This document shows, one piece after another, positions 21,790 to 47,996 of a stretch of 64,000 nt of DNA (within the stretch, counting starts at the first letter, position 1; each line of letters opens with the position of its first letter). The position numbers and the translations under genes are program-made. The notes below the pieces were generated by a model, which saw nothing but the letters and a program-made list of their open reading frames with translations, did not search any database and was not told the DNA's origin. The DNA comes from Verrucomicrobiia bacterium (GTDB lineage: Bacteria; Verrucomicrobiota; Verrucomicrobiia; Verrucomicrobiales; Akkermansiaceae): positions 1 to 64,000 of the forward strand of contig CANHQJ010000007.1 of assembly GCA_947462875.1 (NCBI GenBank), read 5' to 3'.

Positions 21790-23340
21790 TCAATCGCGGT
21801 TCGTGCTTTCGATCCATGCCCGCAGCGCCGTGTAGTCCACCTTGGCGTTGTGGCGGCGGTCTAGCGGGATTTTTTCGATCCAGTGCAGGTCATCGAGATG
21901 ATGATCCGTGGCAAATTCCTGCCACTCTGCGGGATTCATGGATTCGTATTTTTCCACAATCAGACAATGGCGGCCGCGATGGGAAATGACCGCCGCGCGC
22001 CGTTGTGGCCAGCGGTGGCGGATCACGCACTCTAACGAAAAAGGGTAAAGCACGGAGCCGTTTGTTAGCTGCATTTTTTCAGAGCATCGGCCGAGCAGCC
22101 AGAGTCTGCCGTTTTCATCAAGGTAGCCCGCATCCCCCGTGCGGTGCCAGATGGTATCGCCGACACGGAATTTCGTCTCGTGATCGCCCAGTCCATCGAG
22201 GTAGCCCTTGAGAACGTGGTCACCGGAAACGACGATTTCACCCGCTTCTCCGGGAGCGCATTCGCGAGCGAGAAAGGTTTCTTCCTGCATCGGCGATAAG
22301 GCTTCGCCCCAGGCATCGCGCATGACTTTGCAGCGAATGTCATCGACCACTTCGCCCGCACAAAGGCCGCGACCTTGTGCGGAGGCGCGATGCAGATCAT
22401 CGAGTGATGCATCGCGGCATTCGGCAATCGGTTCCGCTTCGGTCGATCCATACACGGATACGATTTGTGCATCGGGGAGGGCTTGCGTGAGTCGCTCGAT
22501 GAGATCGGGAAACACCGGCGCGCCACCGGTGTAGATCGACTGAAAGGACGGCATACGACCACGCAACAACGCTTCAAAAAATGCCGGCGAAGCGGAGCAG
22601 CGGGTGACGCCATGGTCTTCGCACTGTCGCGCGATCTTCTCCGCATCAGCCTGCGCGGGATGGGCGAAGTTCATGTCGGCCAGCACCGAACACAGTCCCG
22701 AGGCGAGATTGGCCAAACAAAAAACCGGCAAGGTCACGAGGTCCACTTCGCCTTGTTGCAAACGCAGCGCCTGTGACAGCGATCGATGCTGGGCTAGCAG
22801 AAATCCATGCGTTCGCACGGCGGCCTTGGGCACTCCTGTGCTGCCGCTGGTGAATGTGATCAAGGCTGGATGGTCATCGGCGCACTCGTAAGCTGGCTGA
22901 TGATCATGCTCTTTCTTCAACACGTCGGAAAATGGCAGGTAGCCGCCTTCATGAAACGCATAGGTCACGCGCCGCAGCGCTGGCACCAGCAATCGCAGCG
23001 CATGGGCCTTGCGGATGCCGACAAATGCATCGACTTTTTTCCGCGCACAACAATGCGCGATGAACGCACGCCCCGCCGATGGATCGGCCAGCATGACCAC
23101 CAACCCGGCGTGAAGCGCCCCGAGCAAGGTGACATAGAATTCGATGGTGATCGGGTAAAATAAAAAGACCGTCTGCCCCGGTTCCAGTCCGCGTTGGCGG
23201 AATTGCCGCGACACTCCGCAGACGCGTTGGAGCAGTGTGTGAAACGTCATGCTGCGCCGCTGACCTTCGTGCACATCGCAGAGGGCCAGGGCATCGGGGC
23301 ATTGTTTGGCCCATGTTTCCAAATGTGTGACCAGATTCAT
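21790..23340 (-). CDS. OleC-like AMP-dependent acyl ligase (last gene of the seven-gene operon)
   Basis: An ANL-superfamily adenylating enzyme of 516 residues. Motifs: the P-loop ITFTSGSTGVPKAAVRTH, A5 YGSTEAEPIAE, A7 WHRTGDAGYLDENGRLWLLGR, and the C-terminal catalytic Lys in RRHNAKVDYTALR. YGSTEAEPIA and SIYTGGAPVFPDLIERL are closest to the fatty-acid-CoA-ligase/OleC branch, whose members activate fatty acids or close beta-lactones; which reaction applies here is not readable. Its ATG overlaps the GNAT stop (ATGA), so it is translationally coupled. It abuts pbpC convergently. It probably activates an acyl or hydroxyacyl group for the operon product. Confidence 0.85.
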   Translation of the reverse strand: MNLVTHLETWAKQCPDALALCDVHEGQRRSMTFHTLLQRVCGVSRQFRQRGLEPGQTVFLFYPITIEFYVTLLGALHAGLVVMLADPSAGRAFIAHCCARKKVDAFVGIRKAHALRLLVPALRRVTYAFHEGGYLPFSDVLKKEHDHQPAYECADDHPALITFTSGSTGVPKAAVRTHGFLLAQHRSLSQALRLQQGEVDLVTLPVFCLANLASGLCSVLADMNFAHPAQADAEKIARQCEDHGVTRCSASPAFFEALLRGRMPSFQSIYTGGAPVFPDLIERLTQALPDAQIVSVYGSTEAEPIAECRDASLDDLHRASAQGRGLCAGEVVDDIRCKVMRDAWGEALSPMQEETFLARECAPGEAGEIVVSGDHVLKGYLDGLGDHETKFRVGDTIWHRTGDAGYLDENGRLWLLGRCSEKMQLTNGSVLYPFSLECVIRHRWPQRRAAVISHRGRHCLIVEKYESMNPAEWQEFATDHHLDDLHWIEKIPLDRRHNAKVDYTALRAWIESTNRD

Positions 23341-24290
23341 CGGATTGTTTTGCTCATCAGCGCGTATCTGCGGAATACCACGCCGCCAAATCGTTCGGTG
23401 ATTTTGAGCGAGGTGTTGTCTTCAAATTGTAAGGCATGAATGGCCTCGCGATAGCCCGATTCGTAGGCTCGGCGATGGCATTCATCGACCAACCAATTGC
23501 CCAATCCCGCATAAGCCCGCTCCGCTTTTGCCGCCAGTGTTTTGACGATCAAAGCGGCATTGCGTCCCTCCCGCAGCGCGAGGAAATCGGGAATGCCAAA
23601 CACAAAACCCACGGCCTTGCCAGCGCAGCGGGCGATGATCACATAGCGCGGATCGATGCCCGCTCGCACGCTTTGGTATTGCGAAAAAAACTGCTCCCAG
23701 CTCATCGGCGTGTATAAAAAGTTCTGCGAAAAGCTCTGCACGCTAAGCTCATAGATATCGCGCAGTTCTTCTTCAAAGACATCGAGATCAATCGTTTGAA
23801 GGACAATACCATGAGCTTGCAGCCTGCCGCGCACTCGTTCATTAGTCACCTGGGATCCGTCTAACGGAACCACAGAAGAGGAGTACCGGGACAAGACCGC
23901 ATACCCCGCCTTTTTCCACCATAAGGGTTGTTCTGCATGATCGTTGGTTGGCTCCAACGCAAAGGGCTGTCTGCCGTTCGACTCGACTACCCAGCGATGT
24001 TTTCGCCACGTATTGCCATTCATAGGTCCAATGACTATCGTGGCACCATGTTCCCTCAGCATCTTTTCCGCACGCTCTAACAATTTTTCGCAAGCTTCCG
24101 CAGAACTCGCCCGGAAAGACCCGATGCAACCAATCGTTTCTCCGGGGTAAGCGGGAATATCCGACCACCAGAGACCCGCGCAGCCGAGGCATTCCTCCTG
24201 CTCCAACAGACCCATCACCGCATCCGCAGATGCCGCTTCAGGTAGGACCGCCTTTTCTAACAAAAAATTCTTATCGTCACTCCAGTTCAT
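23337..24290 (-). CDS. GNAT-family N-acetyltransferase (sixth gene of the operon)
   Basis: A 317-residue GNAT-fold protein, apparently with two halves. The N-terminal part contains REHGATIVIGPMNGNTWRKH. The C-terminal half has the acyl-CoA site region YVIIARCAGKAVGFVFGIPD and the terminal ERFGGVVFRRYALMSK. It probably transfers an acyl group to an amine or hydroxyl of the pathway product. The ATG (24288-24290) lies inside a 30-bp repeat that also exists at 31243-31272, where the same ATG overlaps the stop of the kinase-like gene. Here, however, the kinase-like gene is 7 kb away because of the insert. It is coupled to the AMP ligase by ATGA. The frame is intact. Confidence 0.8.
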   Translation of the reverse strand: MNWSDDKNFLLEKAVLPEAASADAVMGLLEQEECLGCAGLWWSDIPAYPGETIGCIGSFRASSAEACEKLLERAEKMLREHGATIVIGPMNGNTWRKHRWVVESNGRQPFALEPTNDHAEQPLWWKKAGYAVLSRYSSSVVPLDGSQVTNERVRGRLQAHGIVLQTIDLDVFEEELRDIYELSVQSFSQNFLYTPMSWEQFFSQYQSVRAGIDPRYVIIARCAGKAVGFVFGIPDFLALREGRNAALIVKTLAAKAERAYAGLGNWLVDECHRRAYESGYREAIHALQFEDNTSLKITERFGGVVFRRYALMSKTIR

Positions 24291-24306
24291 AATATTGCCA
24301 TGATAA
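24277..24306. repeat. Left copy of the 30-bp direct repeat bounding the insert
   Basis: Positions 24277-24306 are identical base for base to 31243-31272. The core is TCCAGTTCATAATATTGCC. Read on the minus strand it contains the last codons of the kinase-like gene (IMAIL stop) overlapping the first codons of the GNAT gene (MNWS). After the repeat the two copies differ by one base and then match for three more (AGA). Confidence 0.95.
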
Positions 24307-24456
24307 GAGATTTATCTTGCGTAATTCTCGTGCCAAATGAAGAGCCTGCATCTATGGGAAATTCATCCAATTATTTAATTAGTGAACTTTCTTGTGCGTA
24401 TGATGGCAAAAATAAGACATACGGAAATGACAAAAGAGCTGTCATGGGAATCTGTC

Positions 24457-24486
24457 ATGGTCATAAGCCGCCCACTCGGGCTTGCG
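24457..24486 (-). pseudogene. Fragment of a second TSP3-hydrolase C-terminal region
   Basis: On the minus strand, 24486-24457 reads RKPEWAAYDH and stops soon after. The intact giant protein has RNPEWAAYDK at the corresponding place (DNA about 26198-26224). The two 27-bp stretches match at 25 positions. The rest of 24307-24496 shows no open frame of substance. It is probably the relic of another copy of the hydrolase C-terminal region, left at the end of the insert. Confidence 0.55.
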
Positions 24487-24496
24487 CCGAAGTAAC

Positions 24497-25489
24497 TTAT
24501 GGTGCCAATGGCTTTTCATCATCCTTAAGATTTTGAAAGAGATTCTTGGTCATGTCAAATTCTAGATTGCGGTCGTTGGGGGTGGGGTTGAAGTAGTATT
24601 TGATATAAACAGATTTTGGATGTGAAGGCAATGCATCATATCGAAAATCATTGTGTATTTTTACGTAGTTAGCAGATATCAATTTGTTTTTTTCATCGGT
24701 TTTGCTGCGAACACGTAAAAAATAAAAGTTGCGATCTGAAACATTGGTATGCAACATCAGTTCTTTCGGATCCACGAATTTTGTTTTTTCTAATTCCTGG
24801 AAATACCCGTTTTCTGGCGCATGATATGGCATGATGAGTTCAGACCCTTTATTTAGGGCATCAATCTCCATCTGCATAAATCCATCCATGGGATGAGGAA
24901 AACGAATTTTGAGTTTTGATTCTTGATCTTCGCGTCTCACATACTTGCTTGTTAAATGAAACTCGACATCAGTTATGACACCTTTTCCATGAGGTGCAAC
25001 GAGGTCACCTTGCTCAAAATCATAACCCAACCAAACATTTTCGAATGGCAATTTTATAATTGCTCTCTTTGCATACAGTGCAATCGGATTTTTGATTGGT
25101 TTTAGTTTGAATTCAATGAGTGGGTTATCCGGTTGCCATACTCCTTTGGATTGGGAGGTGTAAGTGTATTCCACTGAATGTTGCTCGTAATACCCTTGGG
25201 CTTCTCTGATGCCAAAAAAAACTACACTACTTTTTGTTTCATTGGATAACTGCGCTAGTCCTAAATGGTTTGTAGTAGCTACAGTGCTTTTGTTTTGAGC
25301 ACTCCCAAAACCTTGAGTATTTGCTAACTTGTCGAAGTATGTGCCGCCGACGGTCACGCCAGCCAATGGTTTGCCATCAATATCGGTGACTTTGATTGTT
25401 GCATTGGTTTTTGCGGAGGAAATTTTTTGACCGCATGATACATTGATGAATAAAAATGCGATGAGAGTTATGATAGATATTGTTTTCAT
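24497..25489 (-). CDS. Lipoprotein next to the TSP3-hydrolase giant (candidate immunity protein)
   Basis: A 330-residue lipoprotein: MKTISIITLIAFLFINVSC has the lipobox with Cys at residue 19. A beta-rich segment (NATIKVTDIDGKPLAGVTVGG) resembles a carboxypeptidase-regulatory-like fold, and the rest is unfamiliar. The C terminus (YYFNPTPNDRNLEFD) looks like a conserved closing motif. It begins 11 bp after the stop of the giant hydrolase gene, so the two are co-transcribed. A membrane lipoprotein immediately downstream of a secreted lipase-like protein resembles the Tle/Tli effector-immunity arrangement; that role is inference. GC is markedly lower than in the neighbouring operon genes. Confidence 0.7.
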   Translation of the reverse strand: MKTISIITLIAFLFINVSCGQKISSAKTNATIKVTDIDGKPLAGVTVGGTYFDKLANTQGFGSAQNKSTVATTNHLGLAQLSNETKSSVVFFGIREAQGYYEQHSVEYTYTSQSKGVWQPDNPLIEFKLKPIKNPIALYAKRAIIKLPFENVWLGYDFEQGDLVAPHGKGVITDVEFHLTSKYVRREDQESKLKIRFPHPMDGFMQMEIDALNKGSELIMPYHAPENGYFQELEKTKFVDPKELMLHTNVSDRNFYFLRVRSKTDEKNKLISANYVKIHNDFRYDALPSHPKSVYIKYYFNPTPNDRNLEFDMTKNLFQNLKDDEKPLAP

Positions 25490-25500
25490 GGTGTTGCTAG

Positions 25501-28500
25501 TTATGGATTTCTGAGTTCGCCGAGTTCACAAAATTTGTCGAAGAGTTTGTAAATGTAGAGATAGGACATTTCTCTTATGTCACTGTGATGCCATCCAGTG
25601 TCGTCATTTCTTGTCGCAGGCCAGCCGTTTTTGAACTCCGTGTTCATATCGAAGTTATGACCTTCAGGGAACTCTTCCACCGGAGTCGATCCGACTGCAT
25701 AGCTGATAGCTGGGATGGATTCCGCTAGCAGGCGTGAAACTTCATCATAGTTTTTCGCGGCGGCTTCCTGGGTTTCTGTTTTGTGGAAATCATCGAAGCG
25801 GAAAGGTTCGAAGAACGGTTGATTGCGCAGTTGTTCGTTTGAGATGGATTGTGTTTCGGCGTTGTTGCGTTTACGTTGGTAATTTTCTATTCCAGAGAAT
25901 TCTGTAATATACCACGCAGGATTCCAATCCCATCCGCCTGAGGCTCCGATGTGTCCAATGCCTCCTCCCGAGAGAAAGCCAAAACCTTTGGTCATTTCTT
26001 GTTTCGTCCACGCTCGCAAACCAGAGGTGTCGATCGGTGGCATTGTACCTTCGGAATGTTTTAAAACTTCTTCGCCAGAAGAATAAAAGTTGTAAGCGTT
26101 AGGGAAGGCGGAGAAACGTCCCGTCCATTTGACTTTATCACGGCAGGCGTGGTTTTCGGGAAATGTTTGCCACCAGTTTGACGCCCACAGGCGTTTGTCA
26201 TACGCCGCCCACTCGGGATTGCGCATGTTTTGTTCTTCTTCAGCCGTGATGACTCCGCTGTATGCCTCACGTGGCACGGCGGCATCGATGAGGAAGTATT
26301 TGCTGACCTGCATTCCCCAATCGTGGATGGCACTGCTTGTCATGACGTTGCCAAGACTAAACGCGGAAATGATTTTTTCATTCGGTTTGCCATTTACGGC
26401 GGGTATTTCGTTCACTAAATCGGCTAATGACTTGGAAGTGCGGAAGGCATTGTGGACGTTGCGCCAGAAGTCTGGAGTGACATGGCTATTTCTGCTAACG
26501 CTGAACTGTGATTCATTGCCATGCCAAATCACGCCAAGAAATCGCGCTCTCGAACCCGATTGATACATGCGTTTGAATAATTCGGAGTGCCAGCCGCGTG
26601 ATTGATGGCCACTTACGTTGTATCCATTAACAAAAATAAATGTTTTACCATTTGTGAGGCTGTCAGGATAATTTACTGGTTCCGTGGGGAATCCACCTTG
26701 CGATCCGCCTGCTAAATTTTCATCCAGCCATTTAGCTCGAAACATATCCTCTACGTCACTAACTATAATTGGCAGGCGTAATTTTAACGCTATTTGATTT
26801 AATTCTCTATTACGTATAATGACTTCTATGTTTTTGCTAGTTGCAATACATCCTTCAATTAAAATTATTCCATTGCCGTTGGCTAGGCTTGTCAACATTT
26901 CATCGGAAATTGTATATCCGGCGCCATCATTATAGACGCGATGAGATTGCAATTTTATGACACTACGCGCGTGGTCTACATCTTTTAAATGACGATTACA
27001 ATCTCCATAAGAATTGTTCAAAGGGTAAATCGGCACCCATACCGCTCGTATGTAAGGAATATTTTCCACGCCATCAAGAGATATGCTGTATTGATGTGTT
27101 TCTTTTGGAAGCAAACTTAGTGCTTGCCGAATTTGCAAGGTCATAGAAAAGAAATCAACAAGATCACGTTCTTGATCAATGTATTGATTATATAAGTCTT
27201 TATCATTAGGACCGCTCCCTAATCCTTGAATATCAGTGCCGCCTGTTTCGCCCCAATCGTTATCTCCATTAGTCCAGATGCGCCAGGGTGCTTGTTCGGT
27301 GATTTGGCCTTCGTCTTCTTTGCTGAATTGTCCGTCACGGTTGGCGTCCACTAGGATGCTGGCGCGGAGGAGCACGACTCGTTTGGGCTCGTGGGTTTCG
27401 AGGAAGGTTTCTATGTCGTCGTTGTCGTCGTCGGCGGGGTTGAGGTCTTCTGGATCGCGTAATGGTTGAGTGGGATCGGTGGTTTTGGTGCGGGGATCGT
27501 AGGAGTCGATGAGGATATGGCTTTGATTTCCGTTCAGTGGCTCGATGACGAGGTGGTAGTCGAAGTCGGCTCCTTCGGCGTTAGCGCTACCGGGGCTTTG
27601 GGCGTTGTTGTTTGTGCCTTGCCAGTCGATTTGGAAGGTGTAGGTGTGGGTTTTGGGGAAGCTGCGGGTTTGTTCAGTGTATTGACCGAAGCCGCCGCTG
27701 CGGAGGGTGTAGAGGCGTTTTTCGCTGCCATCGGGCTGGAGTTGGAAGACGTTCAGGACGTAGTCTTCGCTGTGGCTGCCGCTGCGGTCGCCGACGCCGA
27801 GTTTGAGGGCGAGGAGTTCGGAGGCGGGAGGGCGGGTGCCGTTGTCGCTGGCGTCGTTGGGATTGCTGCCGTCGTCGGTCGCGAGGTTGCCATCGGGGCC
27901 TTTGGCTTCAGGGCCGTCAAGGACGCCATCGTCGTCGGTGTCGCGTTTTTTGGGGTCGCTGTTGTGGCGGTATTCATCGAGGTTGCTCAAACCATCGGAA
28001 CCGCCTGTGTCGTTGTCTAGCTGGGCATCGGCGGCATTTAGGGGATTGAGGCTATGGCTTACTTCCCAGCCATCGGGAATAAGGTCGCCGTCGCTATCGG
28101 GATGAGATATCTGAGTGCCTAGGGTTTGCTCTTGTATGTCGGTAAGGCCATCGCCGTCGGTGTCGCGGTTGTTGGGTTGGGCACGGAAGGGATCGTTTTG
28201 GAAGGTAGTTTCACCGGGGTCTGCAAGGCCGTTGGTGTTGGTGTCGCGCCACAGCTTTGTGGCTGTTTCAACTCGGTCAAATAATCCATCTTTGTCACTA
28301 TCGATATCGACGAGTGCGGTGACTTCGGTAGCACTGAGGGCGCGGTTGTGGATGGTGAAGCGGTCGAGTTTTCCGCGCAGGGCGGTGTCTGCTGTGGTGG
28401 ACTGGTGGAGTCTGCCGAGGGCGAAGTAGCCGGTAGAGGTGGCGGTGTAGGAGGCGGCGGAGGTAGTAAACTGATTGAGTTGGGCGGCGTTACGATAGAC

Positions 28501-30012
28501 TTTAATGATGCCGCTGTTTTTGGTAATGGTGAGGTGTTGCCAGGTATCGTTGTCTAATGGATCGTTTTGAGGGATTAGGGTGACAAGGTCTGGCTGGAGG
28601 GTGCCGTTGTGGTAGTGGGAGATGATGAGTTTTTGGCTGTCTTGGGCGGTGAGGGCTTTGTAGGCGTGAACTTGGAATTCGGGTGTGGTGTCGTTGTTGT
28701 TACTACCGTTGCCGTTGTTATAGGCCCACAGGACGGTGTTGAGGGTTCCTGTTTTGTTTTGGATGGAGCCTTGGGTGATTTTATACCAGAAGGAGATGGA
28801 CCAGTTGGTTTTTCCTGAGAAGACTTGGGGCGGGGCAATGAGAGAGTGGTTTGCAGTTTGGTAATTGGCGGAGCGTGAAATAAGTCCGTCGTTTGATACG
28901 GTTGGTCCGTAATATACGGCGGGATGACTGGCGTTGATGAGGTTGGCGTAGGCGAGACTGGTGCTGCCGTTGGCGGTGATATTTTGAAGGTTCTCGAAGT
29001 CCCAGAGTGAGGTAAGGCCGTTCAGGAGCGTACCAGTGATCCCGGCAAGGTCGGGGTTGGTGATGACGTTATTTTTAAGGGGGGTGTTGTCGATGTTGTC
29101 GGGGATGCCGTCGAGGTCAGTGTCGTTGGTGAGGGGACTGGTGCCGTTGATGATTTCTTGGGCGTCGTTGATTCCATCGCCATCGGTATCTGCGAGTAGG
29201 GGATTGGTGCCGAGATTTTTTTCTGTTAGGTCACTGAGCCCATCGCCATCGGTGTCAGCGAGAAGTGGATTGGTGCCGTTGGCGATTTCGTCGCCATCTT
29301 GGATGCCATCACTGTCGGTATCGGGGTTAAGAGGATGGGTGGTGAGGATGTCTTCTTGGCCGTCGTAGAGGCGGTCGCCATCGGTATCGGGGTTGAGGGG
29401 ATCGAGGGCGCGGAGGAGTTCGGCCTTGTCGTGGATGCCGTCGTTATCAGTATCGTTGTGGTAGGGGTTGGTTTGGAGGATGATTTCCTCGGCATCTGTT
29501 AGACCATCGTTGTCAAAGTCGTTATCGGTGATATTGACGCGCCAGAAGAAGCGTTCGGGCGGGACTCCGGCGGTGGTGGAGACGGCGCTGACGTGGTTGA
29601 GTTGTTCTTCGTGGGCGAGTGTGGCGTCGCTGATGGTGAGCCAGGAGAGTAGGTCGGGGGAGCCTTGGAGTTGGTAGTTTTTTCCGAGGATGGTGGGGTG
29701 ATCGATGTGGAAGAATCCTTGGGCGGGGTTGGGCTGGATGTGGGGTTTAAGGATGTCGTGCGGGGGCGTGGCATTATTGGGATTGGTGCCGGCGATGGAT
29801 TCTGTTAGATTATTCCAGCCGTCTTGGTCAGGGTCGGTGGTGGGGCTAAATTCTGGGGGAAAAAGTGCGTTGTTGTTGTATTGTTTTTCCCATACATCAC
29901 TGAGCCCATTTTGATTTTCATCGAGGATGGCGTGGGCGGATGTGGTGAGTATTGCCGCAATGACCACCAAGGTGAGGTGGTCGCAAAGTTTGGAAGAAAG
30001 GAAGGATTTCAT
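25501..30012 (-). CDS. Giant secreted TSP3-LamG protein with C-terminal alpha/beta-hydrolase-like domain
   Basis: 1503 residues. A signal peptide (to about residue 28, TSAHA) is followed by a linker domain, then a calcium-binding TSP3 array (about 165-310: repeated DTDGDGLSD..., NPLLADTDGDG), a LamG/concanavalin-like domain (about 330-565, WSISFWYKITQGS), more TSP3 repeats (575-720) and a C-terminal region. That region has lipase-like landmarks: IFVNGYNVSGHQSRGW (about 1125), the elbow-like AFSLGNVMTSSA (Ser about 1217, FSLGN instead of GHSLG), FLIDAAVPRE (about 1245) and GWHHSDIREMSYLYIYKLF at the end, a plausible catalytic His. It is probably surface-exposed or released. It is coupled upstream to a secreted protein gene by ATGA, with a lipoprotein gene 11 bp downstream. 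Base composition suggests recent arrival. Confidence 0.75.
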   Translation of the reverse strand: MKSFLSSKLCDHLTLVVIAAILTTSAHAILDENQNGLSDVWEKQYNNNALFPPEFSPTTDPDQDGWNNLTESIAGTNPNNATPPHDILKPHIQPNPAQGFFHIDHPTILGKNYQLQGSPDLLSWLTISDATLAHEEQLNHVSAVSTTAGVPPERFFWRVNITDNDFDNDGLTDAEEIILQTNPYHNDTDNDGIHDKAELLRALDPLNPDTDGDRLYDGQEDILTTHPLNPDTDSDGIQDGDEIANGTNPLLADTDGDGLSDLTEKNLGTNPLLADTDGDGINDAQEIINGTSPLTNDTDLDGIPDNIDNTPLKNNVITNPDLAGITGTLLNGLTSLWDFENLQNITANGSTSLAYANLINASHPAVYYGPTVSNDGLISRSANYQTANHSLIAPPQVFSGKTNWSISFWYKITQGSIQNKTGTLNTVLWAYNNGNGSNNNDTTPEFQVHAYKALTAQDSQKLIISHYHNGTLQPDLVTLIPQNDPLDNDTWQHLTITKNSGIIKVYRNAAQLNQFTTSAASYTATSTGYFALGRLHQSTTADTALRGKLDRFTIHNRALSATEVTALVDIDSDKDGLFDRVETATKLWRDTNTNGLADPGETTFQNDPFRAQPNNRDTDGDGLTDIQEQTLGTQISHPDSDGDLIPDGWEVSHSLNPLNAADAQLDNDTGGSDGLSNLDEYRHNSDPKKRDTDDDGVLDGPEAKGPDGNLATDDGSNPNDASDNGTRPPASELLALKLGVGDRSGSHSEDYVLNVFQLQPDGSEKRLYTLRSGGFGQYTEQTRSFPKTHTYTFQIDWQGTNNNAQSPGSANAEGADFDYHLVIEPLNGNQSHILIDSYDPRTKTTDPTQPLRDPEDLNPADDDNDDIETFLETHEPKRVVLLRASILVDANRDGQFSKEDEGQITEQAPWRIWTNGDNDWGETGGTDIQGLGSGPNDKDLYNQYIDQERDLVDFFSMTLQIRQALSLLPKETHQYSISLDGVENIPYIRAVWVPIYPLNNSYGDCNRHLKDVDHARSVIKLQSHRVYNDGAGYTISDEMLTSLANGNGIILIEGCIATSKNIEVIIRNRELNQIALKLRLPIIVSDVEDMFRAKWLDENLAGGSQGGFPTEPVNYPDSLTNGKTFIFVNGYNVSGHQSRGWHSELFKRMYQSGSRARFLGVIWHGNESQFSVSRNSHVTPDFWRNVHNAFRTSKSLADLVNEIPAVNGKPNEKIISAFSLGNVMTSSAIHDWGMQVSKYFLIDAAVPREAYSGVITAEEEQNMRNPEWAAYDKRLWASNWWQTFPENHACRDKVKWTGRFSAFPNAYNFYSSGEEVLKHSEGTMPPIDTSGLRAWTKQEMTKGFGFLSGGGIGHIGASGGWDWNPAWYITEFSGIENYQRKRNNAETQSISNEQLRNQPFFEPFRFDDFHKTETQEAAAKNYDEVSRLLAESIPAISYAVGSTPVEEFPEGHNFDMNTEFKNGWPATRNDDTGWHHSDIREMSYLYIYKLFDKFCELGELRNP

Positions 30013-30158
30013 TTGTTTTCTCCTCCCTCAATGGTGGCTGGGGTTTGGGCATCGGGGCTGACTGTCCAGTGTTGGATGATGATGTCGGGCTTCGGCACGG
30101 GGGGCATGGCGCGGCGGGCGGCGGCTTCTTGTTCGCGGATGGCTTTGATGCGTTGGTA
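30009..30158 (-). pseudogene. In-frame 49-codon tail cut off by the TAA at 30159-30161
   Basis: In the same frame as the preceding CDS and directly after its TAA, 49 sense codons follow: YQRIKAIREQEAAARRAMPP, a middle part with PDIIIQHWTVSPD, then ATIEGGENK. The frame ends in a TGA (30009-30011) overlapping the giant gene's ATG (30010-30012). An ATGA junction at exactly the end of this tail argues that it was the real C terminus. The TAA is therefore a recent nonsense mutation, a recoding site or a sequencing error. Confidence 0.65.
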
Positions 30159-30866
30159 TTAGCTGATGAGTGTGGTGTGGTGGCGTTGGTAAATTTCGTG
30201 AAGGCCTTTGATGGGGGCGATGTCTTCGGCGGTGGGGTTGCCTTGAATGATTTGGTAGGTGGGCTGGGTGGCTGGGTCCGTGGGTAGTGTGGGGATGTGG
30301 GGTAGGGTGTAGGTTCTGCCAAATCGGGCGTAGCGGGCGGCGGCTTTGGCCGTGTCTTCATCGCCGATGCCGTGCAGGAATGAGTAGATGGTATCGTTTT
30401 TTTTGAAGCGATAGATTGTATTAAAGTAGTGAAAGTTGACGTTACTCCATGCTTTGAATACTTCGATGGGTGTTTTGCCTTGGCTGGTCCAGGTGATAAG
30501 GGTGTGCTGGTGATCATAGACCGTGCAGGAGAGCATGAGAGTGCGGTACTTTGGGGCGTTGGCGATACGTGCGGCGCGTGCGGCGATTTGCTCTGGGGTG
30601 GGTGGAGTGGGCTCTGTAGGGATGGGGATGGGCGGTAGCTCAACGGGGGAGATTTGCTGGACGATGATGGTTTGATCGTCTTTTACGATGGTTTGTGAGT
30701 CGATGATGTTTTCAGCGGGGACTTCGACTTTGAGGACGGGGCGGGGAGCAGCGGGGGGAGGTGGTTCGTGCGCGATAGGATCAAGTATTTCGGCAGGTTG
30801 GTCTATGGGTTCTTGTGCCGCTAATGTTGCGAGAAATAGGAAGGGGAGGATGTATTTGATTATCAT
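30159..30866 (-). CDS. Secreted hypothetical protein, shortened by an in-frame stop
   Basis: From the ATG at 30866 the protein has a signal peptide (MIIKYILPFLFLATLAAQ, cut at about residue 17). A Pro/Glu-rich stretch follows (about 30-85), then a C-terminal part of unknown fold with YRTLMLSCTVYDHQHTLITW and GIGDEDTAKAAARYARFGRTY. The longer open frame to 31028 runs through a palindromic repeat and is unlikely to be translated. The frame stops with TAA at 30159-30161, yet coding-like sequence continues in the same frame for 49 codons up to the start of the giant gene (next entry). I do not recognise the family; it is probably an accessory of the giant protein. Confidence 0.6.
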   Translation of the reverse strand: MIIKYILPFLFLATLAAQEPIDQPAEILDPIAHEPPPPAAPRPVLKVEVPAENIIDSQTIVKDDQTIIVQQISPVELPPIPIPTEPTPPTPEQIAARAARIANAPKYRTLMLSCTVYDHQHTLITWTSQGKTPIEVFKAWSNVNFHYFNTIYRFKKNDTIYSFLHGIGDEDTAKAAARYARFGRTYTLPHIPTLPTDPATQPTYQIIQGNPTAEDIAPIKGLHEIYQRHHTTLIS

Positions 30867-30929
30867 GGCCTTACATGGTTTGATTTTATCCTCACAGGTG
30901 GACGGGGAGTTAAGAAGCCGCACAGAGTC

Positions 30930-31026
30930 GACCGCAACGGCCTTTGGCTGCCTCCGAGGAAGCAGCTTGGACATGCGCCGCTGCCTCCCCGGCCTTTCGG
31001 CTGGTTTGGCAGCAATGGTTGCGGTC
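30930..31026. repeat. GC-rich palindromic sequence upstream of the insert genes
   Basis: The arms GACCGCAAC (30930-30938) and GTTGCGGTC (31018-31026) bound a GC-rich stretch with further internal complementarity (GCTGCCTCC ... GAAGCAGC, and GGCCTTTGGC near GGCCTTTCGG). It stands out in an otherwise AT-rich region. It may be a REP-like repeat or a leader structure upstream of the three-gene unit starting at 30866. Confidence 0.45.
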
Positions 31027-31242
31027 ATTGCTAACCGCTATGTGTGTGGATTTCTAAGTCCTCTTCCGCTTGCGCAGATATGCTTATGCTGTCATAAGCC
31101 AAAACTTTGACAATTAAAAAATCCGCCAAAATATGCACATTCAATTTATGGATCGTCCGCAGTTTGCTTACAAAGACATCGAGATATATCCCAGGCAGTG
31201 AGACTTACTGCGCTTGTCCGATCTATCGAAAGTATCATCACA
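31027..31242. other. AT-rich right end of the insert
   Basis: About 215 bp between the palindrome and the right repeat, with no intact gene. The only recognisable content is a decayed GNAT-like fragment (next entry). Promoter-like AT-rich words are present, but none is convincing. Confidence 0.4.
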
Positions 31243-31256
31243 TCACTCCAGTTCAT
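31136..31256 (-). pseudogene. Decayed second copy of the GNAT gene
   Basis: On the minus strand the ATG at 31256 begins MNWSD, as in the intact GNAT gene. After about 67 bp, in another frame, 31189-31136 reads IYLDVFVSKLRTIHKLNV. The intact protein has IDLDVFEEELRDIYELSV at about residues 165-182: 10 of 18 positions are identical with no gap, and the DNA shares an exact 15-mer (31171-31185 and 23774-23788). I read this as a GNAT gene with an internal deletion and frameshift, left beside the kinase-like gene. The alignment is short, hence moderate confidence. Confidence 0.5.
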
Positions 31257-31272
31257 AATATTGCCATGATAA
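31243..31272. repeat. Right copy of the 30-bp direct repeat bounding the insert
   Basis: Identical to 24277-24306. Here the minus-strand ATG (31254-31256) overlaps the TGA stop (31253-31255) of the kinase-like gene as ATGA, which shows the ancestral junction of the operon. Confidence 0.95.
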
Positions 31273-32551
31273 AAGAAATCAACACACACCACAGTGAGCG
31301 CTCGTAGAGGATCCATTTGCCATCGGCATTGAATCGACGCAGCGAAAACTCATGCATGAACAGACAACCCAGCAACAAGCCGCAAAAAATCCCCAGCCTT
31401 TGATACGGTATCGTCAGTGACATGCTTGCGATCAAAATCAACACGCACAAAAGGCCTTTGACAAAGGCCCAGCCGATGAATTGCGAAATTTTGAAGCGAT
31501 ATACCGTCGCCCGTGCCATCAGGCAAATGTGCGTTCCCGCGATGGCCACCATCGCCCAATGACATACGGCAAGATCGATGCGATCGCGTTGATAGGCGAT
31601 CAAACACAGCAAGGTCGGCACGGATAGCGCGGCGATGATCGAAAGCCCATGCTGCAAGCTGCTTCCGATCTGGTAACGATGCGTCGTCCACAGATGCATC
31701 GCAAACACCAAGAGCAGCGGCAGCATCATCCGCCAGTCGCCCAGCGCGTGGCAGCCGTAGGCGAGCAGGATGGCCGCTTGCAACGCTCCTCCCGTGAGCG
31801 TCGTCTTACGATGGCAAATCCCTAACAAAACGAGCAACAGCACCAGCACAAGGATCTGCCAGTATAAAAAGTCATCTGCTTTCTGGTGCAGTTGATCGTA
31901 GAGAAAATATCCCGCCACGGGGATCGTGAGATTGTCGAATCCCCGATCCGCCACGGCCTCCACCATCATCGTGAGACACGCGAGGATGAATGCCACCAAC
32001 AGCGAGGAGACCAGCGTTTGTCCATTGAAGAAAAAATCGACCGATGCCACAACGGCAAAGGCGGCGACAAAAAACGCGCTCGATCCCTCAATCGTTTTTT
32101 TGCCCGTGCGTGCCTGATATTGATGAATGCCGTAGCGCACTCCCACGAGCGCTCCTGCGGCATCGGCGAGTGTCAGCAATAGCACGGGAATGAGATAGTG
32201 CGCCCAGCGATCGTCCGACCAGTAAAACACCGCCGCCACGGCCGGTGCAAACAGCAGGTCGCCAAAGGAGACGCGTGAAATCGATAGCAGCCCGTCACCC
32301 ATGCCACGCCGCAGCACCGGCACGACACGAACGGCGAACACCATCAGCACACTGCCCAGCGCGGTGATCCATACCGAAATGGGTTCCTGGAAAATCCACG
32401 GAAAAATCGCGCACACGGAGCCCATCGTCACATGGATCACCTTGCGACTCCACTCGACCGGCCAGGCTCGTTTCGCGGCAATCCAATGCACCGACCACAG
32501 CCCCGCGGCCAGCGCCAGAAGAATCGTAACAATGGGCAACCATTCGATCAT
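31253..32551 (-). CDS. Phytol/dolichol kinase-like (CTP-dependent) membrane protein, fifth operon gene
   Basis: A 432-residue polytopic membrane protein of the phosphatidate cytidylyltransferase/dolichol-phytol kinase fold. Signatures in order: SRKVIHVTMGSVCAIFPW (N-terminal), SFGDLLFAPAVAAVFYW, then LLTLADAAGALVGVRYGIHQ with GKKTIEGSSAFFVAAF, the nucleotide-site pattern of VTE5/SEC59-type kinases. A further ~200 residues of transmembrane helices follow, longer than usual, perhaps a second membrane domain. It would phosphorylate an isoprenoid or lipid alcohol with CTP at the inner membrane. Its ATG overlaps the DUF3419 stop (ATGA), and its own stop overlaps a GNAT start codon that is now only a relic. 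Confidence 0.75.
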   Translation of the reverse strand: MIEWLPIVTILLALAAGLWSVHWIAAKRAWPVEWSRKVIHVTMGSVCAIFPWIFQEPISVWITALGSVLMVFAVRVVPVLRRGMGDGLLSISRVSFGDLLFAPAVAAVFYWSDDRWAHYLIPVLLLTLADAAGALVGVRYGIHQYQARTGKKTIEGSSAFFVAAFAVVASVDFFFNGQTLVSSLLVAFILACLTMMVEAVADRGFDNLTIPVAGYFLYDQLHQKADDFLYWQILVLVLLLVLLGICHRKTTLTGGALQAAILLAYGCHALGDWRMMLPLLLVFAMHLWTTHRYQIGSSLQHGLSIIAALSVPTLLCLIAYQRDRIDLAVCHWAMVAIAGTHICLMARATVYRFKISQFIGWAFVKGLLCVLILIASMSLTIPYQRLGIFCGLLLGCLFMHEFSLRRFNADGKWILYERSLWCVLISFIMAIL

Positions 32552-33657: not shown

Positions 33658-36043
33658 CGGCTATCAATCGGATTTCTCCCGTGCTGCCATTCATTTCTAA
33701 CAAGTCGCCCGTTTGCACCAGAGTGGTGATGCCCGGCAGCGAAACGATGCAGGGCAAGCGCATCTCGCGCGACACAATCGCCGAGTGCGAGAGCAGGCTG
33801 CCGCGCTCGACCAGCAGCCCCGCTGCCAGCGGAAACAACACCACCCAGCCGGGGTCGGTTTGTCGGGCGATCAGAATTTCCCCCGGCGCCAGCGAGGCCT
33901 GTCGCGGATCCAGCACCACGCGCGCGCGGCCTCGCACGATTCCCGGACAAGCCCCCGTGCCCTGCCACTGCACCGCCGTGCCGTGGTGCGGCGCAGGCGC
34001 TTCAAATCGCTCGTAGCGATGCAAGGGACCATGCGTCACGATGCGATCGGGCGGCGCTTCGGACTGCTCGTATTCCTGAAACTCACGCTGGCGCAGGGCG
34101 ACGATCTCCGCAAGCTGCGCGGAACTGTTGACGCCTTCCCACACGCCTAACAACTCGCCGATCTCCAGGTAAAACACATCATCCGCTTGATGCAGTCGTC
34201 CATCCGCCACCAGTCGCAAGCCCATCTCGCGAATCAAGGAACGCACACGACCGAACAACAGAGTGCGTTGAAAGCGCAAGTTCTCGCGGCACAGCACCCG
34301 CGCTCTCGCGTGCTTGAGAACGAAGCGAAAGACCATGCCGCGCATGCCGTTGAGCCCGATCTCCGGCGCTGCTTCGCGGGCGGCTGGTGCGGCCTTTTCG
34401 CGCAGTGCCATCACGCCGAGCGCTTGCAATAAGGTCGATGGATCATCGCGCACCGTCGCGCTTTCCAATTTCAATTCCTCCATGCAGCGATCACCGAATT
34501 CGAACAGATACGCTTGAACCAATGTTTCCAACTCCGGCCAAGCCGCGATCTGTTGTTGTTTGCTGGCGATGGAAACTTTCGCATCCGCCAGCACCGTCGC
34601 GACTTCACGCCGCGTGCGCAAAAGATCCGCCATCGCTTCCATGCGGCGCGGTGGCTCGGCACTGATCATCTCGCCCGCATCAAGCAGCAATTCATTCTGA
34701 AAATTCGCACCGCGATCCGGCAGCCACTTCTTGCACAGTGCGCCTAACACGCCATAAAAAATCATCGCGAAAAAGTCATTCACCAGCGGCGCATCCCAGC
34801 GCTTGAGCAACTGACGTTCCAGTCCGCGATACTCCGCCACAAGGGCATCGCCGCTGGCACGTTCGAGAGAAATCGCCGATGAAGCAAGCGCTGTGCGGAA
34901 ACGAACATCGAAAGCGCTGATCTGTTTTTCCAGTCCCCACCACTGCCGCAGCAGACCGAGGCAGGTCTTCGACAACGCCACCCATTCGGCCATGCGCCCG
35001 CCACGGTTCTCGGCAATCACTTGCTCCACCAGTGAATCAGGCAATGGTTCGCGCACGCCCATCATCTGCTCCATGAAACTGCGATTCAATCGGAAACCCG
35101 GCAGCATCGCCAGCACCCGATACCAGCTCAGCAAATTGTAATACACCCGCCCGCGAATCAGCCCGAGCATTTGCGCATAGACATCATCCGCTGCGGCGAT
35201 GCGGTTTTTTGGCACAGCGAGCAGGCCGCAAAATTCCCGATAGACCGCTTCGTAGATGCGTCGTGCGAAGGAAAATGTCATCGGCGTGGTGACACCGCAG
35301 TAGCTCTCCGCGATGTTGCTGTTGTCCCACACCCGCACCTGATCATTGGGATCGGGCAAGAGGCCCAGAGTGGTGATGGCACGCGATTGCAGCAGCCACA
35401 ACACGCCATCACCATCCAGTGCCCACTCGATGTCCTGCGCTCTCCCGAAGTGTCTTTCACAGGCGCGGGCGAGGGCTGCGATCTCCCGTAGTTTTTCCAT
35501 CGAAACCAGTGTGCCGCCATCGCTGATCACTGCATCCGTTTCATCGAGTATCCAGCGTTGTCCATCGACCTCTCCCGAAACCAGTGCCTCGCCCGTGCCT
35601 TCGGTCGCACAGATCACCACGCGCTGACGATGCCCGCTCACCGGGTCCGCGCTGAAGGCGACACCTGCCGATCGCGCGGCAATCATCCGCTGCACGATCA
35701 CCGCAGGCTGCGCAGGAAAGGGCAGTTTGTTTTCACGACAATAGGACAGGACCCGCTCAGAGCGAACCGAGTCGCGCACGGCATCGATGCGCTTAGCCAC
35801 CTCCTCCGCAGGGACTTCGAGAAACGTATCGAACTGTCCCGCGAACGAATGCTTCACGCCATCCTCTGCCAGTGCCGAGCTGCGGACCGCAAAAAGCGCG
35901 CCGCCCAGCGACTGCAATTTCGCAACGTCAAATGGCTCTCCTGCGACCACCGCAAACCACGCTGGCACCCGAAAGCCGGCCTCGCGCAATGCATGAAGAG
36001 CCAGGGCCTTGCCGCCCCATTCCTGATGGATCGTATGTTTCAT
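33647..36043 (-). CDS. PEP-synthase/rifampicin-phosphotransferase-like dikinase, third operon gene
   Basis: A three-part enzyme of 798 residues when started at 36043 (MKHTIHQEWGGKAL), where the ATG overlaps the UbiA stop; 17 upstream residues in the open frame are unlikely. The N-terminal ATP-grasp domain shows AVRSSALAEDGVKHSFAGQF and IVQRMIAARSAGVAFSADP. A large middle domain contains VWDNSNIAESYCGVTTPMTF. The C-terminal swivelling phosphohistidine domain has LLSHSAIVSREMRLPCIV, with the catalytic His. This order is that of rifampicin phosphotransferase rather than classical PEP synthase, since no PEP-binding TIM barrel is seen. It would split ATP to AMP and Pi and phosphorylate a hydroxyl of an unknown substrate bound by the middle domain, presumably a pathway intermediate. 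Confidence 0.8.
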   Translation of the reverse strand: MKHTIHQEWGGKALALHALREAGFRVPAWFAVVAGEPFDVAKLQSLGGALFAVRSSALAEDGVKHSFAGQFDTFLEVPAEEVAKRIDAVRDSVRSERVLSYCRENKLPFPAQPAVIVQRMIAARSAGVAFSADPVSGHRQRVVICATEGTGEALVSGEVDGQRWILDETDAVISDGGTLVSMEKLREIAALARACERHFGRAQDIEWALDGDGVLWLLQSRAITTLGLLPDPNDQVRVWDNSNIAESYCGVTTPMTFSFARRIYEAVYREFCGLLAVPKNRIAAADDVYAQMLGLIRGRVYYNLLSWYRVLAMLPGFRLNRSFMEQMMGVREPLPDSLVEQVIAENRGGRMAEWVALSKTCLGLLRQWWGLEKQISAFDVRFRTALASSAISLERASGDALVAEYRGLERQLLKRWDAPLVNDFFAMIFYGVLGALCKKWLPDRGANFQNELLLDAGEMISAEPPRRMEAMADLLRTRREVATVLADAKVSIASKQQQIAAWPELETLVQAYLFEFGDRCMEELKLESATVRDDPSTLLQALGVMALREKAAPAAREAAPEIGLNGMRGMVFRFVLKHARARVLCRENLRFQRTLLFGRVRSLIREMGLRLVADGRLHQADDVFYLEIGELLGVWEGVNSSAQLAEIVALRQREFQEYEQSEAPPDRIVTHGPLHRYERFEAPAPHHGTAVQWQGTGACPGIVRGRARVVLDPRQASLAPGEILIARQTDPGWVVLFPLAAGLLVERGSLLSHSAIVSREMRLPCIVSLPGITTLVQTGDLLEMNGSTGEIRLIADED

Positions 36044-36927
36044 CTGTTGAGTAGGGGAATGATGCCTAAGGTCAGATACAGCACGAGTGTCCACAGTGCC
36101 GACATTTTTTCCAGATGGGAGCCTTTCATCGAGGTGAGTGTGTAGTTTTTTGCCAGGATCAGCGAACCTGCCATCAGTAAACCTAACGAAAGGGCAATCG
36201 GCAAGTCAAAGCCGATGGCGCGCCCCGCATTCCAGGCACAGAAAAGGGTCGCAGCCATCGCCATCAGCCACGTCACCACCGCACGCCGTTTCCCCCACAG
36301 GGCGCTGTAGGTTTCCACACCTTCCTCCTCCTGCGCCGGTTGGCGGAGCTTTCGACCAATCTCGATCACGACACCATTGCAGAAACTCGCTGCGAGAAAC
36401 CACGACAATCCCTCGGGCATCGTGCCGTGATTCAAGGACCACACACAGGCCGTTGCAAACAAATCCACCAGGGGCATGATGCCCATGTGCGTGAGAAGAT
36501 AGATCACCGGTCGCGCCTTGAGCCAATCGCGGCAGAAAAACTCCACACTCATCAGCGCGAGATATACCCAACCGAGCAGCAAGACCCACAGCAGGGCAGG
36601 GGAGAGCGCATAGGCGAGTCCCGCTTGCAAAACCGCACCGATGACAAATACGACGCGCAGTTCCGCCAAACGAATCAACCCGCGCGGCACAGGACGATAC
36701 GGTCGCCAGCGTGCGTCATCCTCGCGGTCCTTGAATTCATCGGCGATGCGCAGTTGCAGGAAAAAGACCAAGCACACCACGAAGGCCACGGCGTAACTCG
36801 TCCACGAGGGAATGCCGCGATCCATCAACAGCGCGACATAAGAGACCGCGCAACTGCTGAATGCCAGAATCAGCGGTCCATGGGCCAGCAGCGGAAATCG
36901 CTCTCGTTGATAAATCCACCACTTCAT
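36040..36927 (-). CDS. UbiA-family prenyltransferase, second operon gene
   Basis: A 295-residue membrane protein with about eight hydrophobic helices. The first Asp-rich motif is clear: RIADEFKDREDDARWRPYRP followed by VPRGLI, matching the UbiA superfamily diphosphate/Mg site. The second motif position reads EIGRKLRQPAQEEEGVETYS, with Glu-rich instead of the usual Asp-containing loop. The enzyme would transfer a prenyl group from a prenyl diphosphate to an aromatic or polar acceptor in the membrane. It is coupled to HMG-CoA reductase (ATGA at 36924-36927) and to the next gene (ATGA at 36040-36043). The acceptor is unknown; no quinone-pathway gene is nearby, so a specialised role is likely. 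Confidence 0.82.
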   Translation of the reverse strand: MKWWIYQRERFPLLAHGPLILAFSSCAVSYVALLMDRGIPSWTSYAVAFVVCLVFFLQLRIADEFKDREDDARWRPYRPVPRGLIRLAELRVVFVIGAVLQAGLAYALSPALLWVLLLGWVYLALMSVEFFCRDWLKARPVIYLLTHMGIMPLVDLFATACVWSLNHGTMPEGLSWFLAASFCNGVVIEIGRKLRQPAQEEEGVETYSALWGKRRAVVTWLMAMAATLFCAWNAGRAIGFDLPIALSLGLLMAGSLILAKNYTLTSMKGSHLEKMSALWTLVLYLTLGIIPLLNR

Positions 36928-38225
36928 GAGTCATTCGTTTTTTTGGAACGTGCCAGTTTGTGATGAGCGCGGGCGAAATGTCCGGCACTCATGGCGGCGA
37001 TGATCGATAACTCACCCGCCAGCAACAATCCCGCGCACACCTCCGCCAGGGCCCGTGCCTGCCCGCTGCCATGGAGCCCCATCAGTTCCAAACACGCCCG
37101 CTGTGTCGGCAATCCCGTGCCGCCGCCCACGGTTCCCACCATGATGCCCGGCAAGGTCACCACGGCATAGAGCGATCCGTCATCGCGCGCTTCGAATCGC
37201 GTCACCCCCGTGGCCGATTCCGCCACGCAGGCGACATCCTGACCTGTCGCAAGATACAAGGCCGCGAGCCCGTTGGCAAAATGCCCATGCACCCCCATCG
37301 TGCCGCTCAGCACGCCACCGATGGCAGAAACGCGCCAATACTCTTCCATTTCCCTCGCCGTGACGTGCAGAAGTTTTTCCAGCACCTCCGCACTCACACG
37401 CACCTCCGCCGTCACTTTTTTCCCGCGCACCGTGGTGAAGGATTTCGCGCTGGCCTTTTTATCGCCGGACAAATTCGATTCCACATAACACTGCTGCGGT
37501 GGCACTGGCGATTCCTGCATGATCCAGTCGCAGGCCGCCTGCGTGGCGATCGTGACCATGTTCTGTCCCGAGGCATCGCCGGTGATGTACTCGAAATTCA
37601 GATAGACATGATTCCCTTCGAGAATGCAGCCGAGGTCGATCAGCTTGCCGTGGGCGGTGGTGGATTCGGCGATCTGCTTCAGTTCCTCAAAACGTGCCAT
37701 CACCCAAATCACAAACCGCGCAGCATTAGCCGAGGTGGAAAACAAGAACGCTGGTGCCCGACTCACATTTTCCGAGAGCAACAGGGTCGTGCATCCACCG
37801 GATTCATTGATCACGTGGCAGCCGCGATGATAGCTCGCCACCAGCGCGGCTTCGGTGGTCGCCAGCGGCAATGGATAGTCGCCCTTCGCCGCCAGTCCAT
37901 TCACTCGCAGCGGCCCCGCCAGACCGATCGGCATCCGCAACTCGCCGATGAAATTCTCGATGTTTCCCTGATACGCTTCGATGTCCGATGCTTTTTCTAA
38001 CAGAATTTCCGCTTGCGTTGCAAAGTCCGTCAGCGCAGCCCACCGTTGTCGCGCCCGCTCCCGCGAAACCTTGGCCGATACACGCTCCATTTTCGGCAGG
38101 TTGCCGAAGTCCGGCGCCAATCGCCGTGCCAACTGCTCCTCGCTCATGGTCTTGAGAAATGTCGCCATGTGCTGCATCGTCAATCCGCGCTTCCCTGTCA
38201 TGGCCCTAGCATAAAAGAGATTCAC
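36924..38225 (-). CDS. Class I-type HMG-CoA reductase, first operon gene
   Basis: About 420 residues of HMG-CoA reductase, which reduces HMG-CoA to mevalonate. Conserved blocks: ENFIGELRMPIGLAGPL, ATTEAALVASYHRG (catalytic Glu), ITGDASGQNMVTIATQ, SNLSGDKKASAKSF (catalytic Lys), YLATGQDVACVAESA (Asp), GTVGGGTGLPTQRACLELMG and MSAGHFARAHHKL (catalytic His). The GTVGGGTGLPTQ and AGELSIIAA phrases match class I enzymes of eukaryotes and archaea more than the class II degradative type. Starts at 38225, 38201 and 38177 are all possible. It heads the operon and is divergent from a sulfatase gene across 71 bp, which must hold both promoters. No mevalonate kinase is in the window. Confidence 0.88.
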   Translation of the reverse strand: MNLFYARAMTGKRGLTMQHMATFLKTMSEEQLARRLAPDFGNLPKMERVSAKVSRERARQRWAALTDFATQAEILLEKASDIEAYQGNIENFIGELRMPIGLAGPLRVNGLAAKGDYPLPLATTEAALVASYHRGCHVINESGGCTTLLLSENVSRAPAFLFSTSANAARFVIWVMARFEELKQIAESTTAHGKLIDLGCILEGNHVYLNFEYITGDASGQNMVTIATQAACDWIMQESPVPPQQCYVESNLSGDKKASAKSFTTVRGKKVTAEVRVSAEVLEKLLHVTAREMEEYWRVSAIGGVLSGTMGVHGHFANGLAALYLATGQDVACVAESATGVTRFEARDDGSLYAVVTLPGIMVGTVGGGTGLPTQRACLELMGLHGSGQARALAEVCAGLLLAGELSIIAAMSAGHFARAHHKLARSKKTNDS

Positions 38226-39757: not shown

Positions 39758-39867
39758 GTGTGCGTCACTGATGAGTCCCGCTGTTATGTGACTGAATCCA
39801 TGCGTTTGTTGATTGATATAAATGCCGCATAGTTTCGCCTTGAACATTCCCTGTAACTGACGACGCT

Positions 39868-40656: not shown

Positions 40657-40672
40657 TTTCGGCGAGTAACGA

Positions 40673-42001: not shown

Positions 42002-42204
42002 GGCGGGGGGATGCTAAAGACGGGGAAGGGGAGAATCAAGAGTGAATTGCCTGTATGACTCTCAGGACGGGTGTGAAAAAAATCGCCCGTCGTGCAGGGA
42101 GGAAACGGCCGTAGGCGGTTTCGCGGGATTTTTTGTCAGGGGCCGCAAGTTAGCTGGCGAAGGGAAGAAAAAGCACAGTGAGCATGCGGCGCTCATGAGT
42201 CCTG

Positions 42205-43566: not shown

Positions 43567-43599
43567 GAGGCGATGGTAGAGTGACTGCTGGAAAAACGC

Positions 43600-47967: not shown

Positions 47968-47996
47968 GAGGGGTTTTGGTCTTTTTTGAAAATGCG

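Follow-up and report, generated by a model that had tools for sequence, protein, structure and literature searches.

HMG-CoA reductase (HMGR) is among the best-studied enzymes, and a PF00368 match is routinely taken as a sign of mevalonate synthesis. In the Arabidopsis and human enzymes, Lys735 forms a salt bridge with the carboxylate of the HMG moiety and Ser684 makes a conserved polar contact (PMC9500038; see also PMC3875450). We compared these class I enzymes with an HMGR-like protein from a Verrucomicrobiia bacterium, encoded in a 64,000-nucleotide stretch of contig CANHQJ010000007.1, called the window here. Three other described systems bear on its neighbours. In the betaine-lipid pathway, BtaA is accompanied by the N-methyltransferase BtaB; the salvage of phytol and other prenols by kinases relies on VTE5, VTE6, and the UbiA-type VTE2; and textbook UbiA proteins carry a second acidic motif, DxxxD. 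No description of the gene cluster reported below was found in the literature, in a search made largely without subscription journals.

A seven-gene cluster headed by an HMGR-like gene

The cluster encodes a reductase, a UbiA protein, a PEP-synthase-like phosphotransferase, a DUF3419 protein, a CTP-kinase-like membrane protein, a tandem GNAT, and an OleC-like AMP ligase. Its features in the window are as follows.

36924..38225, minus strand: HMG-CoA-reductase-like gene, 433 aa, GTG start; cluster gene 1
37479..37481, minus strand: codon for E249 of the reductase, equivalent of human S684; Glu in 67/67 aligned rows
36040..36927, minus strand: UbiA-superfamily membrane protein, 295 aa; PF01040, 48.8 bits
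33647..36094, minus strand: PEP-synthase/rifampin-phosphotransferase-like protein; PF01326, PF00391
32548..33657, minus strand: DUF3419/BtaA-like SAM-dependent aminocarboxypropyl transferase, 369 aa; PF11899, 210.9 bits, positions 3-382 of 385
31253..32551, minus strand: membrane protein, 432 aa, with an N-terminal half like CTP-dependent prenol(-phosphate) kinases/CdsA (VTE5/VTE6 kind), from family and model matches
24307..31242, no strand: insertion of ~6.9 kb between genes 5 and 6; repeat at its ends; genes adjacent in relatives
24497-25489: lipoprotein-like ORF in the insertion
25501-30012: 1503-aa TSP3/laminin-G protein in the insertion
30159-31028: third ORF in the insertion
23337..24290, minus strand: tandem GNAT acyltransferase, 317 aa, core cluster gene 6; Acetyltransf_1 in 41/43 members
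21790..23340, minus strand: AMP-forming acyl ligase, OleC/PRK09274-like, 516 aa, core cluster gene 7; PF00501, 183.3 bits

The reductase frame is intact, with no internal stops, and matches PF00368 over its full length (384 bits, cut-off 27, E 9.5e-115, profile positions 4-368 of 368). Among solved class I HMGRs, it aligns most closely with the archaeal enzyme 6hr7 (1.4e-91), and also with 1dq8 (7.7e-56). Residues E125, K256, D330, and H421 are the equivalents of Glu559, Lys691, Asp767, and His866. An earlier note, made from the letters of the window, had described a complete class I-type reductase with all four catalytic residues, heading a specialised operon and encoded near a possible phosphorylation partner. 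The alignments bear out the first two points; the gene does stand first in a same-strand run, its 3′ end overlapping the UbiA gene by 4 bp, in a seven-gene cluster that recurs elsewhere, and the partner corresponds to the PEP-synthase/Rph-like gene of that cluster. The reductase scores under the cut-offs of both the NADPH HMG-CoA reductase equivalog TIGR00533 (334.4 bits, cut-off 441.8) and the class II degradative HMGR model TIGR00532 (55.7 bits, cut-off 259.95). Its own genome (a 3.95-Mb draft in 39 contigs, 97.7% complete) has no second PF00368 match; the family is present in 13 of the 57 genomes searched, own genome counted, and in 0/9 of the other same-genus genomes.

The partner proteins could be assigned with varying precision. 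The UbiA protein has the first acidic motif as DExxDxxxD and, in place of the usual second DxxxD, a conserved ExGRKxR..EE stretch (62 rows); this departure from the textbook form makes a prenyl-transfer step uncertain. The phosphotransferase-like gene, whose true start is perhaps ~50 bp downstream of the listed GTG, encodes an ATP-binding domain (PPDK_N) and a mobile His domain, and no PEP-binding domain was found in the protein. Its nearest solved chains are 5fbs/5hv1/5hv2, and its SHxAI and RSS..EDG motifs are conserved at at least 95% (one letter at 80%) in 81 rows. The DUF3419 protein belongs to the family of BtaA; the sequence search for a solved relative gave no clear one (best E 0.018), and Pfam detected no methyltransferase domain in the other six cluster proteins. 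The window membrane protein encoded by gene 5 has no Pfam match of its own, and its family members match DUF92 in 5/46 cases and CTP_transf_1 in 1/46. Its structural model (pLDDT 88.9) gave a best VIA Z of 9.0 to CdsA 4q2g over 163 residues at 5.0 Å, which is weak for a helical protein; the sequence search of solved structures was empty and Foldseek returned no match at E <= 0.001. We assign it, with moderate confidence, as a CTP-dependent prenol-kinase-like enzyme. The model of the GNAT (pLDDT 93.6) superposes on the tandem GNAT 7q3a (VIA Z 21.4, 276 residues, 3.6 Å) and on mycothiol synthase 2c27 (VIA Z 19.8, 254 residues, 3.1 Å). The AMP ligase scores 357 bits against PRK09274, under the cut-off of 478.

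The operon described in the earlier note in fact continues past the 6.9-kb insertion. A 30-bp exact direct repeat lies at the insertion ends (24277-24306 and 31243-31272) and spans the ATGA overlap formed by the gene 5 stop and the gene 6 (GNAT) start. Since the repeat is terminal and genes 5 and 6 are adjacent in relatives, the window cluster was probably once contiguous and was then split, with both flanking genes left whole. GC drops to 0.43-0.45 in the left part of the insertion, and no transposase was found among the ORFs examined. Besides the lipoprotein-like ORF and the TSP3/laminin-G protein, the insertion carries a proline-rich ORF.

Two other loci of this genome were noted in passing. 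Adjoining the cluster, 38297-49819 of the window is a carbohydrate-use region, with two sulfatases, a polysaccharide lyase 14, a GH141/CBM96 protein, and a sigma factor/FecR pair. Elsewhere in the genome (L095, 252-1226), a UbiA-family protein whose best match is EboC (98.5 bits, under the cut-off of 250) is encoded directly before galactokinase.

Distribution and co-inheritance of the cluster

Genome contigs were scanned for the phosphotransferase-like protein, and flank families were obtained by grouping the non-overlapping ORFs around the best 80 of at least 570 loci, many of these 80 being cut by contig ends. Within this set of the best 80, the DUF3419 gene was present in 69, UbiA in 62, the membrane protein in 60, the AMP ligase in 57, the GNAT in 48, and the reductase in 50 (54 with all ORFs counted rather than only non-overlapping ones). 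The common order is reductase-UbiA-phosphotransferase-DUF3419-membrane protein-GNAT-ligase; a GNAT-ligase pair placed before the reductase is seen in Desulfobulbus, Rhodothermales, and a Bacteroidetes MAG. Median intergenic distances along the cluster are 7, 119, -4, -1, 0, and 0.5 bp, the value of 119 bp varying with where the phosphotransferase gene is taken to begin. The cluster occurs in about eleven phyla, as given in sequence records that include many metagenome-assembled genomes, and also on a Roseinatronobacter plasmid, where the first position of the circular record falls inside the reductase gene. The seven families have correlated protein distances (Mantel r 0.63-0.90, 0/999 permutations in each of 21 pairs), with a contribution from shared organismal descent.

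Not all clusters encode a reductase. In the 57 loci whose flanks reach far enough, the long membrane kinase is found in 40 of the 42 with a reductase and in 1 of the 15 without, whereas a radical SAM/SPASM gene, C7, is found in 1/42 and 9/15, respectively. C7 is accompanied by C8, which encodes a membrane protein of no known family. These counts indicate that the reductase and the long kinase behave like a single module, replaceable by another, and, as reductase-less clusters retain other genes, that the reductase is dispensable for the conserved core.

Genes for a P450 and a sulfotransferase lie beside some clusters. They are seen alongside two reductase-less variants (L084 and L088) that have two phosphotransferase-like genes and, between these, a gene for an 848-872-aa protein; the L084 protein, the one compared with Pfam, has an N-terminal class III aminotransferase. 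The verrucomicrobial locus L031 (3521-17519) has the C7 and C8 radical-SAM module, a short kinase-like gene, and a complete seven-gene cluster together.

The substrate pocket and the place of the clade in the family

The earlier note did not go beyond the catalytic residues; we found that conservation does not extend to the HMG-binding part of the pocket. The window reductase has E249 at the position of human S684, A126 at G560, and V299 at K735. We aligned 67 reductase rows, comprising the window, 12 loci with a reductase, and 54 of the best 80 of at least 570 phosphotransferase-scan loci; four of the 12 (L004, L005, L009, and L011) have motif rows identical to those of L017, L028, L021, and L050 and are apparently the same contigs, the reductase of L012 is divergent and does not belong to a cluster, and some rows are truncated. 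Catalytic Glu, Lys, Asp, and His are retained in 66-67/67 rows. At the Ser684 position all 67 aligned reductases have Glu, and at Gly560 all 66 rows having a letter there have Ala. The Lys735 column, which sits in an alignment stretch with a one-residue gap, is non-basic in 67/67 rows (V/M/T/L/F/A/I), and an Arg one position away is frequent in cluster reductases, without being invariant.

Ser684 and Lys735 both occur in the three mevalonate-type references, which are 6hr7, 8ecg, and L113, a reductase from a Streptomyces mevalonate operon, the Lys of the plant reference 8ecg being displaced by one column (the column itself reads L). Positions constant in the clade, constant in these three references (two of them partial), and differing between the two sets are S684E, C688S, A751G, and a few others. 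The equivalents of R590, K692, and N755, which also contact the HMG group, are retained in cluster reductases, so some HMG-like binding is still conceivable.

A reductase tree places cluster reductases from many phyla and stand-alone reductases of Vibrio and Photobacterium together in a single group, separate from the mevalonate-type references (SH-aLRT 96), and phyla are intermixed within that group; several reference branches are long, which makes the placement of those references unsure. The stand-alone proteins, encoded on plasmids or second replicons, nest within the cluster clade at 53-56% identity. Two of them (L107, Vibrio, and L109, Photobacterium) also lack Ser684 and Lys735, with Asp and Met at these positions, and may thus not be HMG-CoA reductases either; unlike in the cluster, relatives of UbiA, the dikinase, and DUF3419 are absent within about 10 kb of them. 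More distant bacterial ‘HMGRs’ from a Streptomyces plasmid and an Alteromonas plasmid are also without the Ser/Lys pair. The Streptomyces plasmid ORF (L110, 5332-8205) joins an HMGR-like part with Glu at 684 and an APH-type phosphotransferase in one frame and adjoins a gene for a GH3-type adenylating protein, and the Alteromonas gene is grouped with genes for an AMP ligase and a haem-oxygenase-like enzyme.

Function of the reductase and comparison with known systems

A reductase serving an ordinary isoprenoid mevalonate pathway, with the remaining genes elsewhere, would have the usual role of its family, and the draft genome, at 97.7% completeness, leaves some room for such genes. However, IspC (DXP reductoisomerase, MEP pathway) was found in the own genome, HMG-CoA synthase (PF08540) was absent from this 97.7%-complete draft, and 0/3 GHMP kinases are of mevalonate type, the three being GalK (galactokinase), ThrB (homoserine kinase), and IspE. 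No HMG-CoA lyase scored over the cut-off in this genome (best 45.5 and 40.3 bits, cut-off 246, in ORFs of 527 and 1162 aa). Together these results mean that the mevalonate pathway and the usual HMG-CoA enzymes were not found. The cluster genomes are alike: in the 49 searched, each with a reductase-bearing locus, HMG-CoA synthase turned up once (a weak match in a 423-aa frame), ispC 45 times, and an over-cut-off HMG-CoA lyase six times, the lyase being absent or below the cut-off in the other 43. The clade thus exists almost wholly without the usual HMG-CoA-making enzyme. The earlier note had placed the reductase outside isoprenoid synthesis, expected to run by the MEP route, and had reported no other mevalonate-pathway genes, which holds genome-wide as tested; a complete mevalonate pathway elsewhere in the genome was looked for and not found. 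We rejected such a pathway on ispC/ispE, the missing PF08540, and the identities of the GHMP kinases, and give it hardly any probability. A degradative HMGR that oxidises mevalonate to HMG-CoA for catabolism, which has the superfamily in common, was likewise ruled out, by the TIGR00532 score and an HMG-CoA lyase below the cut-off, and is just as improbable.

It is harder to dismiss a true HMG-CoA reductase whose mevalonate serves as a building block or is phosphorylated by the neighbouring dikinase-like protein, as the earlier note had suggested. Indeed, the family, the fold, and the catalytic residues are retained, as are the R590, K692, and N755 equivalents, and a phosphotransferase gene lies two genes downstream. 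In principle, leucine breakdown might supply HMG-CoA, and mevalonate as a building block without a known HMG-CoA source is possible. Nevertheless, the synthase is absent in the own genome and 48/49 cluster genomes, the lyase is absent or under the cut-off in the own genome and 43/49, and S684 is replaced by Glu with K735 not conserved in all 67 rows, and we consider this reading rather unlikely. The earlier note had left a choice between mevalonate and a related 3,5-diol acid; these results count against mevalonate itself, and a related hydroxy- or amino-substituted acyl thioester is possible. A catalytically idle or regulatory paralogue, retained to support the membrane enzymes structurally, would agree with the clusters that do without the reductase, but retention of the four catalytic residues in 66-67/67 rows and about eleven phyla gives this explanation little weight.

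The reading that we favour, with some reservation, is that these proteins form a distinct class I HMGR clade and would be re-purposed acyl-thioester reductases of a seven-gene, horizontally mobile biosynthetic cluster. We base it on the observed gene content, co-occurrence, pocket changes, and absence of the usual HMG-CoA source. As the usual substrate is apparently unavailable and the pocket is altered, the reductase probably makes something other than mevalonate, which is an unlikely product. Retention of the Glu-Lys-Asp-His chemistry leads us to expect NAD(P)H reduction of a thioester to an alcohol (or aldehyde), and the loss of the Ser684 and Lys735 contacts together with the invariant Glu suggests that the substrate is probably an acyl thioester without the distal carboxylate of HMG, rather than HMG-CoA.

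For the re-purposed reductase, we infer the substrate, the step order, and the product from gene and family roles. The AMP ligase would activate an acid, the reductase would yield the alcohol, and the Rph/PEP-synthase-like protein and the CTP-kinase-like membrane protein would phosphorylate this alcohol; reductase and long kinase co-occur. UbiA may then couple the phosphorylated unit to a partner, DUF3419 may donate an aminocarboxypropyl group from SAM, and the tandem GNAT may acylate an amine. Judging by what the DUF3419, GNAT, UbiA, and ligase families do, the end product would be aminolipid-like, and the pathway served is probably an undescribed one of lipid type. A broader proposal, which we put forward only tentatively, joins these elements: a clade annotated as HMG-CoA reductase in about eleven phyla would not make mevalonate; the charge reversal from Ser684 to Glu would suit an acyl thioester that carries an amine or a neutral polar group at that place; the reduced, phosphorylated unit would enter an undescribed aminolipid class by way of UbiA, DUF3419, GNAT, and the OleC-like ligase; and a radical-SAM route would replace reductase and kinase in most reductase-less clusters, chiefly cyanobacterial.

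If the clade does act on another substrate, numerous annotations and pathway reconstructions in bacteria are in error, and a new substrate class, clearly marked in the sequence by Glu at 684, is added to the HMGR family. The spread of the cluster over phyla and its occurrence on a plasmid suggest a hitherto undescribed metabolite of lipid type. Isolates with the cluster include Luteolibacter, Haloferula, Rubritalea, Desulfobulbus, Brevibacillus, and cyanobacteria, several of them culturable.

Compared with known systems, the reductase shares with class I HMGRs (6hr7, Arabidopsis HMG1, human HMGCR, and those of Streptomyces mevalonate operons) its family, the catalytic Glu/Lys/Asp/His, and the NADPH-type model family. 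Unlike them, it has Glu for S684, Ala for G560, and no conserved K735, scores below the TIGR00533 cut-off, and belongs to a seven-gene cluster without mevalonate genes. The phosphotransferase combines ATP-binding and mobile His domains without a PEP-binding domain, as do rifampin phosphotransferase and the PigC-RedH ligases, but it falls far under the Rph model NF041857 (245 bits, cut-off 999) and the PigC/RedH models (263 and 297 bits, cut-offs 1300 and 1350). With the betaine-lipid synthase BtaA, the DUF3419 protein has a whole-length PF11899 match in common, whereas its cluster partners differ from the pathway partner BtaB. Finally, although no tocopherol genes were seen and the assignment of the cluster kinase draws on weak matches, the cluster resembles VTE5/VTE6/VTE2 salvage in bringing together a CTP-kinase-like membrane protein and a UbiA protein.
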